Positions 1-45,951 of a DNA stretch of 64,000 nucleotides are shown piece after piece. A model generated the notes under the pieces. It did not search any database, was not told the origin of the DNA, and saw only the letters and a list, made by a program, of their open reading frames with translations. A program made the translations under genes and the position numbers. The stretch is taken from assembly GCF_018860745.1 (NCBI RefSeq), contig NZ_JAHKPY010000014.1, forward strand, positions 558,001 to 622,000. Reading direction: 5' to 3'. This DNA is from Zobellia uliginosa (GTDB taxonomy: Bacteria > Bacteroidota > Bacteroidia > Flavobacteriales > Flavobacteriaceae). The first letter of the stretch is position 1, and every line of letters starts with the position of its first letter.

Positions 1-3000
1 CTTCAGAATAGCAACCTTAATGGACAAGGTGATTTACGTGCAGTGGCTAGACCTATTGCCCGCAAGAAAATTACTTTGGCCAATTTATCTAGTAATAGTG
101 GAAAATGGGTTGCTCACGCGCTTGATCTCAAAACGCTAATTACGCCGGAAGTAGGTGCTATCTATAGAGTTGAACTGGATTTTGGACCAGAAGACAGTGC
201 ATATGGTTGTGAGGATTCAAATTTTGATCCTGTATTGGAAGAAAAGGATAATTTTGATGAAGAAAAGGAGAACAGTGCTTGGGACAATGTAGAGAACTAT
301 TATTATAACGATTACTACTACGACTATAACTGGAACGAGAGGGAAAACCCCTGCGATAAATCGTATTACTACAACAAAAAAATAGGAATGAACATTTTGG
401 CGTCAGATATAGGCGTGACGGTCAAAAAGGGAGTCAATAAAAGCTATTTTGTTGCCGTAACCGATATTTTGGATGCCAAACCTGTAGCAAGAGCTAAGGT
501 TACCTTTTATAACTACCAACAACAGCCTATAGGAGAAGTAGTGACAGATGTAGAAGGGCTAGCCATGTTTGATGATGGAAAGCTGGCGTATTTTGCAGTA
601 GTGGAAAGCAAAGGTCAAAAAACCTATGTAAAACTAAATGACGGTAATGCGCTTTCCGTAAGTAAGTTCAAAGTTTCGGGAGTAGAGCTTCAAAAAGGTC
701 TTACAGGTTTCGTTTTTGGCGAAAGAGGTGTTTGGAGACCGGGAGATGACATTTTCCTTTCTTTTATGCTGAATGATAAGGCGCATGGGTTACCGGAAAA
801 TCACCCTGTGAAGTTAGAGCTGTATGACCCCTATAATAAAGTTGTTCATCGTGAAGTAAGAACTAACGGGCTCAATAATTTTTATCAGTTTAATCTTAAA
901 ACAGATGAAAATGCACCTACCGGTAATTGGTTGGCTAAGGTTTCGGTTGGGGGTGCTACGTTTACAAAGTCACTTAAAATAGAGACTATCAAGCCAAATC
1001 GATTAAAGATAAAAACGGAGTTTGATGATGATATTCTAAATGCGTCAAAACCCATTACCGGTAAGATGGAAGTGAAGTGGTTGCACGGTGCAATAGCTAA
1101 AAACCTAAAAGCGGATATTACAGCTAAATTCAATGCAAAGAATACTGCATTCAGTGCATTTCCAGGTTATGTTTTTGATGACCCCACCCGAAGCTTTTCG
1201 GTAGAAGATCAAGTAGTTTTTGATGGTAAGGTAGATGCAGAGGGTAAAACACAATTCAGTATGAATCCTCAGTTTACCAGCATGGCTCCCGGTATGCTAA
1301 AAGCGGCGTTTATAACCAAAGTATATGAAAATGGGGGGGATTTTAGTACAGATGTGTTCTCTAAAACATATTCGCCTTATGGCACTTATGTGGGTTTGAC
1401 TATTCCTAAAGGCGATAAAAATAGAGGGATGCTTTTAACGGATACACCTCATACATTTGATGTAGTTACAGTTGACGAAAAGGGCAATCCTAAGGCCACT
1501 AAAAACATTAATGTAACCATTCACAAAATAAGTTGGAGATGGTGGTGGGATACCTCTGCGGATAATTTATCTAATTACAGTAGTGGTCAATATCATGAGA
1601 AAGTTTTTGAAAAAACACTTAGTACTAATGCCAGTGGTAAGGCCAACTTTAATTTTGAATTAAAGTATCCGGAATGGGGTAGGTATTTGGTACGTGTAGA
1701 AGATCCAAATGGAGGTCATGCCACAGCAAAGACAATATACATAGATTGGCCGGGATGGGCTGGGAAATCTCGTAAAACAGACCCTTCTGCAGCTACCATG
1801 TTGGTATTTTCTACAGACAAAGAAACCTATAATGTTGGTGAAACCGCTACGGTTACCTTCCCTAGTTCAGAAGGAAGTCGTGCTCTGGTTACGGTAGAGA
1901 ATGGTACGGAGGTTTTAAAAAGCCTTTGGGTAGATACGGCCAAGGACGAGACCAAGTTTCAACTAGAAATGAATGCGGAATACGCGCCCAACGTTTTTGT
2001 TCATGTTTCCTTATTGCAGCCACATGCGAGTACCTTAAATGATAACCCTATTCGGTTGTATGGTGTTATTCCGGTTTCTGTGGAAAATCCAACTACAAAA
2101 ATGAAACCTGTTATTGCAATGCCCGAAGTATTGCAACCGGAAGAAACTATTACGGTTAAGGTAAGTGAGAAGAACAAAAAGGCAATGACGTATAGTATTG
2201 CTATTGTAGATGAAGGCTTGTTAGATTTAACCCGTTTTAAAACCCCGGACCCATGGGGCACTTTCTATGCTCATGAAGCACTTGGGGTAAAAACCTGGGA
2301 TGTCTTTGATGATGTTATCGGTGCTTTTGGTGGTAAGGTTAACCAAGTATTTGCTATTGGGGGTGATGGCGAACTAGCAGGTGCAAAAAATAAAAAAGCG
2401 AATCGGTTTGAACCAATGGTAGTTCATTTAGGTCCTTTCAGTTTGAAAGAAGGAGAAACTAAATCGCATGATATTAAGATTCCTAAGTATGTTGGGTCTG
2501 TTCGGACCATGGTTATAGCGGGTAATTCACAAACCGAAGCTTATGGAATGGGCGAAAAAACAACTCCCGTGCGTAAGCCTTTAATGGTGCTGGCTTCGTT
2601 GCCTAGAAAAATTACACCTGGTGAAACCGTAACCCTACCTGTAACGGTATTTGCCATGGAAAAGAAGGTGAAAAATGTAACTTTAAAATTGAAGTCGGAT
2701 CCATCTTTCACTATTTCAGGTGATGCTACCCAGTCACTAACTTTTACACAGCCCGATGAGAAAATGGCATACTTTCAGTTGAAGGTGGCTGATTTTAAAG
2801 GGATAGGTAAGGTAATTGTTGAGGCTTCCGGTAATGGGGAAAAGGCTTCTTTTGAAATCCCTATAGATGTGGTAAACCCAAATCCGCTTACCTCGGAGAT
2901 ACAAAATATTATATTGGAACCTAATTCTGCACAAACCATAAGCCTAGAAACTTTTGGTGTTTCAGGAAGTAATTTGGCGGAAATAGAACTTTCTACTTTG

Positions 3001-29031: not shown

Positions 29032-31443
29032 ATGAACAAAGTTCTGTTTTTACTTGTTTTTCTGTGCTTTCACGTCGGATTTGCCCAACAAATCACGGTT
29101 TTGGATGTAGATACGCGTGAACCCGTTGGTAATGTCGCTATTTATAATTCTGACCATACAAAAACTGCCTTAACGGATTTTGATGGAAAGGTTGATTTAA
29201 AGATTTTTGGAAAGGAAGAACGCATTACTTTCCGTCATCTCAGTTACCAATCAAGGAAAAGTACCAAAGGTTCAATTCTTAGGCATGATAGCCGGTTTTA
29301 TTTGGTTATGAAAGCAGAAGAGTTGGATGAAGTGGTTATGTCTGTTTCTAAATGGGAGCAGCAAAAAAAGGATATTCCCAATAAAATAACAGTTATAGGT
29401 GCTAAGGATATAGAATTTTCAAGTCCGCAAACATCAGCAGACCTGTTGCAGAATAGTGGTAAGGTATTTGTTCAAAAAAGTCAACTAGGTGGCGGCAGCC
29501 CTATGATCAGAGGCTTTGCTACCAACCGTTTGTTGTTATCGGTAGATGGAGTACGTATGAACAATGCTATATTTAGAGGTGGAAATCTACAGAATGTAAT
29601 ATCTATTGATCCGTACTCCATAAAAAGTACGGAGATAATATTTGGCCCCGGTTCTGTTATTTATGGAAGTGATGCTATTGGGGGAGTGATGAATTTTTAT
29701 ACGAAAAAAGCTGAGTTTTCAAATACGAACAACTTATTGTTTTCCGGAAATGCAAGTTATCGTTTTGCTACGGTCAATACAGAAAATACATTTCACTTAG
29801 ATTTTAATTTAGGTAAAAAGAAATGGGCCTTTCTGACCAGTGCTTCGTACAACAGCTTTGATGACCTGAGCATGGGTTCTCATGGACCTGGTTCCTATTT
29901 AAGAAACCAATATGTATCAACGGTTAACGGAACCGATTTCCTGGTAGAGAATGAGAATCCAAAAAAACAGACTCCTACAGGGTATAACCAGTTTAATTTG
30001 ATGCAAAAAATAGCATTCAAACCAAATAATTCTTGGCACTACGATTTGGGTCTTCATTATTCTGAAACTTCCGATTATGCTAGATATGACCGTTTGATAC
30101 GGCCAAACAAAGCAGGAGACGGACTTCGTTCTGCGGAGTGGTTCTATGGCCCACAAAAATGGTTTATGAGTAATCTGCAGTTAAACAAAAGGGGTAAAGG
30201 TATTTTTTACGAGGGATTGAAAATAACAACTGCTTATCAACATTTTGAAGAAAGCCGAAATGACAGGTCTTTTCAAGATATACTTCGGTATACAACAAAA
30301 GAGAAAGTAGATGCGATTTCTACGAATATTGACTTTGAAAATAAGAAGATAGGCAATCTGCGCTTGTATTACGGAGGTGAGTATATTTTTAACAAAGTAG
30401 GTTCTTTGGGTAGTCAAGAAAATATTGAGACTAATCTGGTATCAGGTACGGCTTCTAGATACCCAGACGGGGCTACTTGGCAAACCTTAGCGGGTTATGT
30501 AAACGGAGAGTACAAGGCCAAACCCAATTTTACGATACTTTCAGGACTTAGATATAGTCATGTTTGGATAGATGCCGATTTTGATAAAACCTATTATCCA
30601 TTTCCTTTTGATGATGCCAATCTTAATAACGGTGCCTTAACGGGAAGTTTGGGTTTTAGTTGGTTTCCAAAAGCTGATTTACAGATTACCTTAAATAGTT
30701 CAACAGGTTTTAGGGCTCCCAATATAGATGATGTGGGTAAAATATTCGATTCGGAACCTGGCGCGGTAGTGGTTCCAAACCCTGATTTGGAACCTGAATA
30801 TGCTTATAATATTGAACTAGGCGTCTCCAAGAACTTTAATGATAAGTTGGTTTTTAAAAGTGCCGCGTTTTATACGTATCTGGTTGATGCTTTAGTGCGA
30901 AGGGATTATTTGTTTGATGCGGAAAGTGAGATTGTTTATAATGGCGAATTAAGTAACGTACAGGCCATACAGAATGCGGCAAAGGCTTTTGTTTATGGTT
31001 TTGAATTTGGGGCCGAAGCTTTTCTTACGGATAATCTATCTATAGTTTCTAATTTGACTATTACAGAAGGTATAGAAGAGGAAGAAGATGGTACGGAATC
31101 TCCAGGACGGCATGTTTCTCCCACTTTTGGCGATTTACATGTAATTTATAAAAACCAAAGGATGAAAACAGATGTGTTCGTGAACTATAACGGAGAGATT
31201 CCTTTTTATGATTTAGCTACTTCAGAACGAAGCAAGGAATATATTTATGCGTTAGATAGTGAAGGAAACCCTTATTCACCTTCTTGGTATACGCTAAATG
31301 TGCGTTCTCATTATGAACTTACAAATGCATTCAAGGTTTCTTTGAATCTAGAAAATATTACCGATCAACGCTATCGTTCCTATTCTTCGGGAATTTCTGC
31401 TCCGGGTATTAATGTTGTTCTAGGTGTAGGGTATAGGTTTTAA
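29032..31443 (+). CDS. TonB-dependent outer-membrane receptor, heme/iron-transferrin-like
   Basis: 803 residues. Signal peptide (VFLCFHVGFAQQ), then a carboxypeptidase-regulatory-like domain (about 22-98), a plug domain (about 115-230) and a 22-strand beta barrel ending in a terminal aromatic (YRF). The plug text SPMIRGFATNRLLLSVDGVRMNNAIFRGGNLQ (in blocks) resembles receptors of the hemoglobin/transferrin group, suggesting heme or iron-complex uptake. FGPGSVIYGSDAIGGVMNFYT closes the plug. No TonB/ExbB/hemophore genes adjoin. It starts one base after recO and probably depends on that transcript. Confidence 0.9.
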   Translation: MNKVLFLLVFLCFHVGFAQQITVLDVDTREPVGNVAIYNSDHTKTALTDFDGKVDLKIFGKEERITFRHLSYQSRKSTKGSILRHDSRFYLVMKAEELDEVVMSVSKWEQQKKDIPNKITVIGAKDIEFSSPQTSADLLQNSGKVFVQKSQLGGGSPMIRGFATNRLLLSVDGVRMNNAIFRGGNLQNVISIDPYSIKSTEIIFGPGSVIYGSDAIGGVMNFYTKKAEFSNTNNLLFSGNASYRFATVNTENTFHLDFNLGKKKWAFLTSASYNSFDDLSMGSHGPGSYLRNQYVSTVNGTDFLVENENPKKQTPTGYNQFNLMQKIAFKPNNSWHYDLGLHYSETSDYARYDRLIRPNKAGDGLRSAEWFYGPQKWFMSNLQLNKRGKGIFYEGLKITTAYQHFEESRNDRSFQDILRYTTKEKVDAISTNIDFENKKIGNLRLYYGGEYIFNKVGSLGSQENIETNLVSGTASRYPDGATWQTLAGYVNGEYKAKPNFTILSGLRYSHVWIDADFDKTYYPFPFDDANLNNGALTGSLGFSWFPKADLQITLNSSTGFRAPNIDDVGKIFDSEPGAVVVPNPDLEPEYAYNIELGVSKNFNDKLVFKSAAFYTYLVDALVRRDYLFDAESEIVYNGELSNVQAIQNAAKAFVYGFEFGAEAFLTDNLSIVSNLTITEGIEEEEDGTESPGRHVSPTFGDLHVIYKNQRMKTDVFVNYNGEIPFYDLATSERSKEYIYALDSEGNPYSPSWYTLNVRSHYELTNAFKVSLNLENITDQRYRSYSSGISAPGINVVLGVGYRF

Positions 31444-42571: not shown

Positions 42572-43714
42572 ATGTCAACTTTAGACAATACCTCATTGCA
42601 CCTACCCAAAGAAAACCCGGACGCAGAAGACTTCCTTCCTTTGTTAGGAACGGATTATATAGAACTTTATGTAGGAAATGCCAAGCAGGCCGCCCATTAT
42701 TACATGTCCGCTTGGGGATTTCAACCCTTGGCATATGCTGGTCTTGAGACAGGTTTAAAAGACCGTGTTTCTTACGTACTTCAACAAGATAAAATAAGAT
42801 TGGTGCTTACTTCTCCTTTAAATTCTGGCGGTGATATAAATAAACATATTGATGCTCATGGAGATGGTGTCAAGGCAATCGCTTTATGGGTAGATGATGC
42901 ATCTAAAAGTTATTCTGAAACAACAAAAAGAGGGGCGGAAAGCTATTTAGAGCCTAAAACCGTCAAGGACGATAGTGGCGAAGTTGTATTATCAGGAATC
43001 CATACTTACGGAGAAACAGTTCATGTTTTCGTGGAGCGGAAAAATTACAAAGGTGTTTTTATGCCGGGTTATAGAGCTTGGAATCCACATTACAAACCTG
43101 CTGACGTAGGACTTAAATTCGTAGATCATATGGTGGGTAATGTGGGGTGGAACGAAATGAACAAGTGGTGCGAGTTTTATGCCAAGGTTATGGGCTTTGC
43201 CCAATTGGTATCTTTTGATGATAAGGATATTTCTACAGAATATACAGCACTAATGAGTAAGGTGATGAGCAATGGTAACGGGCGCATTAAATTTCCTATT
43301 AACGAACCCGCAGATGGTAGAAAGAAATCTCAGATAGAAGAATATATAGATTTTTATAACGGAGCAGGAGTACAGCACATGGCTTTAGCAACGGATAATA
43401 TTATTGAAACCGTTACGGCACTACGAGATCGTGGCATTGAGTTTTTAACAGTGCCTTCAAGTTATTATGAAGAAGTTCTAGATCGTGTTGGTGAAATAGA
43501 TGAAGACTTGGCGCCTTTAAGTGAGTTGGGAATTTTGATTGACAGGGATGAAGAAGGATATTTACTTCAAATATTTACTAAGCCTATTTTGGATAGACCA
43601 ACCATGTTTATTGAAATAATTCAAAGAAAGGGAGCAAAATCATTCGGGAAAGGAAATTTTAAGGCACTTTTTGAAGCTATAGAAAGAGAACAGGAATCTA
43701 GAGGTACCCTGTAA
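42572..43714 (+). CDS. hpd: 4-hydroxyphenylpyruvate dioxygenase
   Basis: 380 residues, two VOC domains. Iron ligands are His186 (VDHMVGN), His269 (VQHMALATDN) and Glu348 (MFIEIIQR), and the C-terminal GKGNFKALFEAIEREQ is typical. It converts 4-hydroxyphenylpyruvate to homogentisate in tyrosine degradation. Homogentisate dioxygenase is not in the window. It is followed by a small-RNA candidate and then the tryptophan dioxygenase operon, so aromatic amino acid catabolism genes sit together. Confidence 0.96.
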   Translation: MSTLDNTSLHLPKENPDAEDFLPLLGTDYIELYVGNAKQAAHYYMSAWGFQPLAYAGLETGLKDRVSYVLQQDKIRLVLTSPLNSGGDINKHIDAHGDGVKAIALWVDDASKSYSETTKRGAESYLEPKTVKDDSGEVVLSGIHTYGETVHVFVERKNYKGVFMPGYRAWNPHYKPADVGLKFVDHMVGNVGWNEMNKWCEFYAKVMGFAQLVSFDDKDISTEYTALMSKVMSNGNGRIKFPINEPADGRKKSQIEEYIDFYNGAGVQHMALATDNIIETVTALRDRGIEFLTVPSSYYEEVLDRVGEIDEDLAPLSELGILIDRDEEGYLLQIFTKPILDRPTMFIEIIQRKGAKSFGKGNFKALFEAIEREQESRGTL

Positions 43715-43875
43715 TTTGATTTTTGATTGGTTTATGACGGAAAAACAGATTGAATTTTGTCAAAAAAGAGATGGCTGCTAAACCTTAACAGGTCGTCATA
43801 TCTTAATGAATTGCCAATTTTAGAGTAGTAAGTAAAAAGAACTGTTAATGTAATAGTTAAAGTAAGTTAAAACGA

Positions 43876-43905
43876 TTTGAGGATTAAAAGTATGCCTTAA
43901 ATTTG
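43876..43905 (+). promoter_or_regulatory. promoter of the candidate small RNA
   Basis: TTTG (43876-43879), 18 bases, TAAATTTG (43898-43905): the best full match to the flavobacterial -33/-7 pattern in the window. Expected start point is about 43911. Confidence 0.65.
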
Positions 43906-43962
43906 TACTCGTAAGGGGTGGTTCCCTTACAACTTTAAGTATTGGTTTTTCATAATTTAAAG

Positions 43963-43979
43963 TTTGGTTGGTTATTTAG
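43963..43979 (+). repeat. 17-nt motif TTTGGTTGGTTATTTAG, copy 2
   Basis: Identical to 14706-14722. Here it lies between hairpin 2 and the terminator of the small RNA; its first two bases also close hairpin 2. Confidence 0.7.
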
Positions 43980-43980
43980 G

Positions 43981-44015
43981 AAAAGCCCTGACATTTAATG
44001 TTGGGGCTTTTTTTT
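43981..44015 (+). terminator. terminator of the candidate small RNA
   Basis: AAAAGCCCTGACAT/ATGTTGGGGCTTTT stem (two G-T wobbles), TTA loop, T-run. Confidence 0.9.
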
Positions 44016-44192
44016 AGCTCGTTTTTTTAATAAAAGTTCATAATAACGTCACTATTGTTATTGGGTCATAAAATATCAGAAAGATATGGTTTGGTACTGC
44101 ATGCAATACTTTGGAATAAATTTTGTTTAAGTAATTGTAAGCCCTTAATTTAATACAACAGTGTTTTGTATTTTTATCGTAATACTACAGCT

Positions 44193-44972
44193 ATGAAAAA
44201 AGCATTTACATTACTTTTTCTTTTTGTCATTTTCTCTTCTTACTCACAAAATAGTAAGTCGGCTTTTGATCCCGGTGAATGGTTAAAGTTTAGAATGCAC
44301 TATGGTTTTCTAAATGCCAGTTATGCTACGCTGCATGTAAAGTCTGATGTGGTAGATGATGTACCCGTTTATCATGTAGTTGGTCGTGGTGAGACCACTG
44401 GTTTTGCCAGTGTGTTTTTTAAGGTAGACGATACATACGAAAGCTATTTTGGACAGGAAGATGGTAAACCTTATAGATTTATTCGAAAGATAAACGAAGG
44501 AGGTTATACAAAAGACATTGAGATAAACTTTGATCATAAGCAAGATAAAGCGGTTCTCAACGATAAAAAACACAATAAAAAGTATAATTTTGATTTACAG
44601 GATAGCATTCAAGATTTAATATCTGCTTTCTATTATCTTCGGAATAACTATGAGCCTAGTGAATTAGTAGTTGGAGAAGCGGTAAAATTGAAAATGTTAT
44701 ACGATGATGATGGTATTTTTAACTTCAAACTTAAATATTTAGGTACAGAAGTACTTAAAACTAAGTTCGGTAAGGTAGAATGTTTTAAATTTAGGCCCTT
44801 GGTTCAGTCGGGTCGTGTTTTCAAGGAAAAAGAAAGCCTTTCATTATGGGTTTCAGCAGATGATAACAGAATACCTATTCGAATTCAAGCAGATTTAACT
44901 GTTGGAGCTATTAAGGCGGACCTTGATGGGTATAACGGATTAAAGCACCAGTTCAAGATAATAATGGATTAA
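44193..44972 (+). CDS. DUF3108 exported protein
   Basis: The ATG at 44193 (MKKAFTLLFLFVIFSS) is chosen for its signal peptide; the frame opens at 44166. 259 residues. GEWLKFRMHYGFLNASYATL, DVPVYHVVGRGETTGFA and LWVSADDNRIPIRIQADLTVGAIKADL (in blocks) match DUF3108, a beta-rich periplasmic family. Function unknown. First of three tightly spaced genes (7 bases to TDO, then 1 base to the M23 peptidase). Confidence 0.85.
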   Translation: MKKAFTLLFLFVIFSSYSQNSKSAFDPGEWLKFRMHYGFLNASYATLHVKSDVVDDVPVYHVVGRGETTGFASVFFKVDDTYESYFGQEDGKPYRFIRKINEGGYTKDIEINFDHKQDKAVLNDKKHNKKYNFDLQDSIQDLISAFYYLRNNYEPSELVVGEAVKLKMLYDDDGIFNFKLKYLGTEVLKTKFGKVECFKFRPLVQSGRVFKEKESLSLWVSADDNRIPIRIQADLTVGAIKADLDGYNGLKHQFKIIMD

Positions 44973-44979
44973 CACCCCA

Positions 44980-45951
44980 ATGAGAGATAAAGAGCGAATA
45001 GATTCACAAATTTCAAAATTAGAAGAGAAGTATAAAGATTCCGGTCAGGATTTAAGTTCTTATTTAGATGGGCTTCTTTACCAACGTTATCTTACCTACT
45101 GGGATTATATTCATCTAGATACCCTTTTGAGCCTTCAAGTGCCCCGCACGTATTTTCCCGATGAGGAAATTTTTATCATGTACCATCAGATAACCGAGCT
45201 GTATTTTAAGCTTATTCTACATGAGCAAAAACAGTTAGTGGATGATAAATCTCAGAATGTAGATTTCTTTATAGAAAAAGCAAGGCGCATCAACAGCTAT
45301 TTTAAAGCATTGATATCTTCTTTTAGTATTATGATAAAAGGTATGGAGAGAGAGCAGTTTCTCCAGTATAGGATGGCATTGCTTCCGGCCAGCGGTTTTC
45401 AGTCCGCGCAATATAGGATGATAGAGATTTATGCAACTCCTTTGGAGAATTTGGTACACCATACAGAAAGAGAATCGTTTTCGGTAGAAAATAGCATAGA
45501 AGAGCTTTACGAAGGAATATATTGGAAGAGAGGTGCTACGGATTTATCAACAGGAGAAAAGACATTGACCCTAAAACAATTCGAGTACAGATATACCCCG
45601 CGTTTGATCAGGATTGCCAAGCAAGTAGAACAAAACACCATTTATCAAAAATATCAGCAATTACCAGCGGATAAGAAAGATAATAAAGAGTTGATAGAAG
45701 CGTTAAAGACTTTGGATATGAACGCTAATGTTAATTGGCCTTTGATGCATATGGGTTCTGCCCATCGCTATTTAGGAAAGGACAAGGAACAGATAGATGC
45801 TACAGGAGGAACAAATTGGAAGGAGTATTTACCGCCAAGTTTTCAGAAAATTATATTTTTCCCTGAGATCTATTCAAAACAAGAGTTAAATGATTGGGGT
45901 AAGCAATGGGTAGACCATATCTTTAACCCCGATAAGAAACAAACAGAGTAG
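44980..45951 (+). CDS. tryptophan 2,3-dioxygenase family protein
   Basis: 323 residues, all-helical heme dioxygenase. FIMYHQITELYFKLILHEQ (distal His69) is the family signature, GSAHRYLG with His257 (LMHMGSAH) matches the axial heme ligand, and DATGGTNWKEYLPP resembles the GTGGSSG loop. It would open the indole ring of L-tryptophan to N-formylkynurenine. Kynurenine-pathway partners are not in the window. It is sandwiched between a DUF3108 protein and an M23 peptidase in one operon, an odd combination. Confidence 0.9.
   Translation: MRDKERIDSQISKLEEKYKDSGQDLSSYLDGLLYQRYLTYWDYIHLDTLLSLQVPRTYFPDEEIFIMYHQITELYFKLILHEQKQLVDDKSQNVDFFIEKARRINSYFKALISSFSIMIKGMEREQFLQYRMALLPASGFQSAQYRMIEIYATPLENLVHHTERESFSVENSIEELYEGIYWKRGATDLSTGEKTLTLKQFEYRYTPRLIRIAKQVEQNTIYQKYQQLPADKKDNKELIEALKTLDMNANVNWPLMHMGSAHRYLGKDKEQIDATGGTNWKEYLPPSFQKIIFFPEIYSKQELNDWGKQWVDHIFNPDKKQTE

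Follow-up and report, generated by a model that had tools for sequence, protein, structure and literature searches.

The window, that is, the whole 64,000-nt stretch of Zobellia uliginosa DNA analysed here, carries on its plus strand an hpd-like dioxygenase gene (42572..43714; open reading frame with Pfam matches to Glyoxalase and HPPD N-terminal), followed by a gene for a DUF3108 protein (44193..44972, ATG at 44193; Pfam PF11306) and a tryptophan 2,3-dioxygenase-like gene (44980..45951; Pfam PF03301); an M23 peptidase is also encoded downstream. The region between hpd and the DUF3108 gene contains a promoter and a terminator for a small RNA (sRNA) and, judged from its sequence, very probably represents a real RNA gene. 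Direct reading of the plus strand places the promoter where the preliminary description had put it, with TTTG at −33 (43876–43879), a spacer of 18 bp, and TAAATTTG at −7 (43898–43905). In 78 aligned rows (the window and those 77 of the best 80 of at least 548 loci that have enough upstream sequence; 3 of the 81 rows are too short), TAnnTTT is found at the −7 place in 77, and 49 of these 77 have TAnnTTTG. The latter is the flavobacterial −7 consensus given in PMC9723704. A three-part TTAA box, TGTTAA-N6-AGTTAAAGTAAGTTAAA (43843..43871, plus strand), is located upstream of the promoter and is by its sequence a possible activator site. It occurs nowhere else in the genome at three or fewer mismatches, and a looser form of the box precedes the sRNA promoter in 74 of the same 78 rows (the window and 77 of the best 80 of at least 548 loci).

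The transcribed part consists of two hairpins, a linker, and a terminator, all on the plus strand. The hairpins had been described as perfect, with 7 and 8 bp, and both of them exist. Hairpin 1 (43911..43930; GTAAGGGG-TGGT-TCCCTTAC, or GUAAGGGG-UGGU-UCCCUUAC in the RNA), with a covarying stem and a nearly constant tip, has 8 bp when the closing G-U is counted, and hairpin 2 (43931..43964), the 3' half of which contains the start-codon antisense segment described below, is not a perfect 8-bp stem but one of 10 bp including G-U pairs, together with an inner 3-bp helix. The linker GGTTGGTTATTTAG (about 43965–43979) and the terminator with its T-run (about 43980..44015; recognised from sequence, predicted fold, and covariation) are present as previously proposed, and the reading of the plus strand confirmed that no ATG precedes the terminator. 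The minimum free energy of 43876–44015 is −41.6 kcal/mol, as compared with −22.7 kcal/mol (sd 3.2) in 200 shuffles, none of which equals it (z −5.91).

The position of the RNA was compared among 80 named loci, the best 80 of at least 548 by DUF3108 similarity, in all of which (80/80) it lies immediately upstream of the DUF3108 gene. Because the loci were selected in this way, the count speaks for close relatives, some of them near-identical; the closest named relatives among the DUF3108 matches listed are Zobellia species. An hpd gene followed by the DUF3108 gene occurs in 44 of these best 80 (of at least 548), with the RNA between them in 44/44 and a gap between the two genes of 307 to 638 nt, measured in some cases to an internal residue. 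In the other 36 of the best 80, the RNA is present and no hpd is found within the fetched stretch, the copy of locus L118 being cut by the contig end. The terminator of the sRNA is separated from the DUF3108 start by a promoter-like motif, TTTGGAATA, and such a separate motif (TTTGGAAYA) stands ahead of the DUF3108 gene in 77 of the 78 rows (the window and 77 of the best 80 of at least 548 loci).

The RNA was found in all nine genomes of the genus, including that of the window, at 94–100% identity. Across the window and the best 80 of at least 548 loci, 46 of the 47 columns from 43933 to 43979 are invariant (80–81 rows each), and the single variable column has T in 71 rows and G in 10. In the 44 loci with hpd (of the best 80 of at least 548), the 71-nt RNA body is identical to that of the window at a mean of 0.993 (minimum, 0.958), and 30% of the four-fold sites of hpd are identical. 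Why 46 of 47 bases should be fixed across 81 sequences (the window and the best 80 of at least 548) is a good question in itself. A model, R1, built from 46 sequences (45 of 70 distinct sequences and that of locus L019), detected the RNA in 72 of 397 genomes of the family at an E value of 1.5e-16 or better, and in 262 of the 397 at E ≤ 0.01, a number that includes weak putative matches. When 20 further places were fetched, 19 of them weaker R1 matches, 15 adjoined hpd and/or DUF3108 and five did not. Model R2, searched against 296 genomes of the order, matched 67 at E ≤ 0.001, with the strong matches confined to the same family (including, among those listed, 25 genomes of g142, a large genus that may be Flavobacterium) and a weak putative match at E 1.1e-5 as the best in other families. 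DUF3108 adjoins the RNA in 46/46 loci from the R1 and R2 searches, the window itself among them. Copies of this class, hereafter class 1, also occur in tandem (L173) or without the hpd and DUF3108 neighbours (L168). Neighbouring duplicates are located at L173:2425-2533 and 2707-2821 (minus strand), near hpd, and at G247:C122:29499-29605 and 29818-29925. The genome of the window has a weak second R2 match (G000:C12:29301-29401, minus strand; E 3.0e-4), possibly a paralogue or a chance match.

The preliminary description had made conservation of the stems in relatives a touchstone of its proposal, and the stems are conserved. Among 22 family members, 29 of 36 pairs are changed on both sides and 92.5% of the cells pair, in an alignment that was fitted to the model and favours the structure to that extent; none of 500 shuffles reaches this level, and sliding the partners abolishes the pairing signal. 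The main stem of the terminator (helix 6) is paired in 99.1% of the cells, with double changes in 9 of 10 pairs. Direct inspection of hairpin 1 revealed many compensated stems around the UGGU tip (the stem in L091 was misread by the script). The right half of hairpin 2, UUUUCAUAAUUUAAAGUUUUGGUUGGUUA, is kept by sequence where the left arm is altered or absent, for example, in L019, L171, and L177. What is conserved here is the sequence, and not structure alone.

Read in antisense, the invariant part of the RNA resembles a flavobacterial start region (CCAAACUUUAAAUUAUGAAAAA). The segment 43943..43978 (plus strand; UGGUUUUUCAUAAUUUAAAGUUUGGUUGGUUAUUUA), invariant in the 81 rows, is proposed as the target-pairing segment on the basis of this antisense character and the pairing tests given below, and has at its centre UUUUUCAUAAU, the part complementary to start codons. 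BLAST returned two weak matches in other genera, both of them unrelated gene starts matched in reverse complement. We surveyed 318 ORF-based gene starts from 400 kb of stretches and the window, taking the first ATG of ORFs of at least 100 codons as the start and using a crude hydrophobicity rule for "exported-like" genes. The three 9-mers of the sRNA that are commonest as complements at these starts all fall in TTTTTCATAAT, and the complement of TTTTTCATA was found at 16 of the 318 starts, as compared with none among internal windows. The anti-start score calculated with a start-region matrix was equalled by 2 of 5000 dinucleotide shuffles. Predicted duplexes favour start regions over internal windows, to a degree shown by none of 100 shuffles.

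SusC-like transporters gave the clearest signal. With TIGR04056, 56 matches were obtained in the genome, of which 30 loci were taken and 28 used, leaving out L284 (in-frame stop) and L303 (part of the gene of L302). At these 28 starts (of 56 matches), the segment gave a mean pairing energy, calculated irrespective of accessibility, of −15.91 kcal/mol vs −12.01 kcal/mol (sd 0.96) for shuffled segments, none of 300 being as good, and the duplexes mostly straddle the start codon. Exported-like gene starts (60 drawn from 117) were likewise matched by none of 300 shuffles, SusD-like second genes (27) by 8 of 300, and other genes (60 drawn from 197) by 70 of 300. The difference between SusC-like and other genes was reached by 1 of 300 shuffles, and those between SusC-like and exported-like and between SusC-like and SusD-like genes by 5 of 300 each. 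Since the exported-like genes also score well, part of the pairing signal is general start context. Upon splitting the segment, the SusC preference was found to reside more in the centre (matched by 1 of 60 shuffles) than in the linker (by 11 of 60), and neither hairpin 1 nor the left arm of hairpin 2 showed any preference when tested for SusC pairing. The earlier suggestion that GGTTGG may be the pairing part is partly supported, in so far as this motif lies within the longer conserved segment 43943–43978; the linker alone discriminates SusC weakly, and the genome shows hardly any enrichment of AACCAACC at a short distance ahead of ATG. As a leader motif, AACCAACC-N-ATG was rejected, with 74 occurrences against 58 for the reversed pattern.

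Pairing with SusC starts recurred in three other genera. When the sRNAs of genomes G165, G133, and G338 were each set against 10 SusC starts of the same genome, z was −4.4, −4.0, and −3.8, respectively, and in each case none of 200 shuffles was as good; internal windows, as controls, gave z −0.5 to −0.9. The SusD-like starts of these genomes scored z −1.8 to −2.8, and in G133 their energies are as low as those of SusC. A lineage-specific match between sRNA and SusC starts was not seen: for the SusC starts of the three genomes, the segment of the window was a better partner than the segments of those genomes themselves.

These statistics concern classes of genes, and no single conserved target of the sRNA was found. 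In a search for a long unique target, the 24-nt complement matched, at three or fewer mismatches, the sRNA itself only in 8 of 9 genus genomes, with one extra site in G002; the reversed control had a single site in G003 and another in G007, and this kind of target was rejected. The 17-nt complement matched 18 places at two or fewer mismatches, including the sRNA itself, vs 5 for the reversed pattern, and 7 of the other 17 places open an ATG reading frame of at least 100 codons. The start of gldL (L041:1500-1530; G000:C8:955135-955151) includes 15 nt, AAACTTTAAATTATG, that are perfectly complementary to the sRNA. In a search of 30 genomes, in which 28 of the 30 loci were read, this complement was kept in none of the 27 other genomes readable (of 29), and gldL was rejected as a family-wide target.

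A sister class of RNAs (class 2) was recognised in four of the five loci without hpd or DUF3108 neighbours (L172:2307-2771, minus strand; L174:2413-2506, minus; L175:2123-2679, plus; L178:2383-2463, minus). These RNAs consist of a hairpin, GGUGUGGUUACC, followed by CAUAUUUUUGGUUGGUUAGU and a terminator, with three tandem copies each in L172 and L175. The copies share the GUGGUU hairpin tip and UUUUUGGUUGGUUA, L178 doing so in part only; with its divergent sequence and other spacing, L178 is the least certain member of the class. Upstream of 7 of the 8 copies is TTTGGCAC-N5-TTG, which we take to be the sigma-54 promoter pattern. Tandem sRNAs with sigma-54 promoters recall the Qrr RNAs of Vibrio. 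When four of the class-2 RNAs were paired with the SusC starts of Zobellia, not those of their own genomes, 0, 3, 0, and 0 of 100 shuffles were as good; for one of them, that of L174, ordinary genes also gave good pairing (z −3.45).

Altogether, we hold with moderate confidence that the best explanation of these features is a trans-acting sRNA that would block translation initiation of SusC-like and other exported proteins. The stand-alone regulatory RNA suggested in the preliminary description is well supported at the level of sequence comparison: it has a promoter and a terminator of its own, its stems covary, its conservation is extreme, and tandem or displaced copies occur elsewhere. In the proposed mechanism, a base-pairing RNA of about 105 nt would act in trans, its segment 43943–43978 opening out of hairpin 2 and pairing across the start codon (roughly from −25 to +12). 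Its targets would be the mRNAs of SusC-like TonB-dependent transporters and, to a lesser degree, those of other exported proteins. Such pairing would keep ribosomes away, and the synthesis of these proteins would fall. Hairpin 1 with its UGGU tip may serve stability or protein binding, and the TTAA box may make transcription of the sRNA depend on some regulator.

The nearest competitor is a structural or protein-binding RNA, in which the invariance would come from an RNA-binding protein that recognises the UGGU tip and the GGUUGGUUA linker and is perhaps titrated by the RNA, the resemblance to start regions being secondary. The 46 invariant columns of 47 exceed what a short seed requires, and UGGU and GGUUGGUUA are the best-shared parts of class 1 and the sigma-54 class; both points speak for a protein-binding RNA. 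However, 21 of 22 class-1 sequences retain CAUAAUUU and 6 of 8 class-2 rows CAUAUUU, in four genera the SusC starts are paired better than by shuffled segments, and the genome of the window gave no match to RRM_1 or Hfq at E ≤ 0.001 (a Bacteroides ihuae control gave an RRM_1 match), so that we regard this explanation as rather unlikely. Still less probable is a leader or attenuator of the DUF3108–tryptophan dioxygenase operon instead of a free RNA. The constant place of the RNA upstream of DUF3108, both in the best 80 of at least 548 loci and in the 46 loci found by the RNA itself, would suit a leader, as would the terminator ahead of the operon, which could permit read-through control; against it speak the separate promoter-like motif between the terminator and DUF3108, the variable gap between hpd and DUF3108 in the 44 loci (of the best 80 of at least 548), the tandem copies of L173, and the copies of L168 and the sigma-54 class, which lack these neighbours. 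A small peptide, encoded by an 8-codon minus-strand ORF (MKNQYLKL; about 43927–43958, reading AAATT ATG AAA AAC CAA TAC TTA AAG TTG TAA, with a typical flavobacterial start) or by plus-strand TTG/GTG ORFs, is highly improbable, because synonymous substitutions are not scattered through a block in which 46 columns of 47 are fixed, the plus strand is the one with the conserved promoter and terminator and has no ATG ahead of the latter, and the MKNQYLKL-coding stretch is altered or lost in distant homologues.

Returning to the trans-acting sRNA, a wider proposal may be offered tentatively, which we think possible without considering it the likelier case: the RNA between hpd and DUF3108 and the sigma-54 sister class in other genera, whose copies are often in tandem, might each carry an antisense of the typical start region and form a family-wide "anti-start" system that jointly sets the levels of SusC-like and exported proteins, and does so without Hfq or RRM_1 detectable in the genome of the window. 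In the sea, much of the degradation of algal polysaccharides is due to Flavobacteriaceae, in which SusC-like transporters decide uptake; we found little in the literature on their post-transcriptional control in this family. An invariant and widespread RNA at a fixed locus could be deleted or probed across many species.

A search of the whole window against Rfam 15 gave no match at the gathering threshold. The highest sub-threshold match within 43700–44200 was PyrR, with 26.3 bits vs the threshold of 54, and no match named FopS or GibS appeared there at E ≤ 10 in an Rfam copy that may not hold the FopS model. Among ten relatives, no family reached threshold in the sRNA, and only two DUF805b matches, outside it, were obtained. 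DUF805b RNA motifs (Rfam RF02914) are located at L173:1594-1628 and 2286-2318 (plus strand), near the duplicated sRNA copies. In the listed titles and abstract openings from the open literature, no description of any sRNA in Zobellia, or of one between hpd and DUF3108, was found. The general kind, a trans-acting base-pairing sRNA, is already known, and the family, its invariance, and the sister class with sigma-54-type promoters are absent from Rfam at threshold and from the literature listings searched. The RNA, which had been called new, is so with respect to Rfam, and may still be identical to Rfp18 of Flavobacterium psychrophilum.

As described in PMC9723704, Rfp18 resembles the Zobellia RNA in being conserved beyond its species, with a strong fold, several stem-loops, and several predicted mRNA partners. 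The predicted targets include metalloproteases, two such mRNAs falling in the deletion mutant, and the pairing part is the third stem-loop, unlike in the Zobellia RNA; compared by description only, Rfp18 may or may not be the RNA seen in Zobellia. Rfp36 of the same species (PMC9723704, Table 2) has a sigma-54 promoter and can be likened to class 2 by promoter type alone. FopS and GibS of Bacteroides (PMC11697453) are Bacteroidota sRNAs like the Zobellia RNA. GibS binds translation initiation regions, and FopS acts near SusC start codons, as is proposed here. FopS has a single-stranded 5' seed stretch followed by a terminator, whereas the pairing segment of the Zobellia RNA lies behind a 5' hairpin that is predicted, conserved, and covarying, and thus is not a seed of the FopS type. 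FopS is bound by the RRM-1 protein RbpB, whereas the Zobellia genome has no RRM_1 match at E ≤ 0.001. BatR of Bacteroides thetaiotaomicron, compared by description (PMC10861873), differs in its locus, its conservation among Bacteroides species, and the release of its seed by processing; like the Zobellia RNA, it is intergenic, forms hairpins, and pairs at translation initiation regions, and its pairing with surface genes has been tested.
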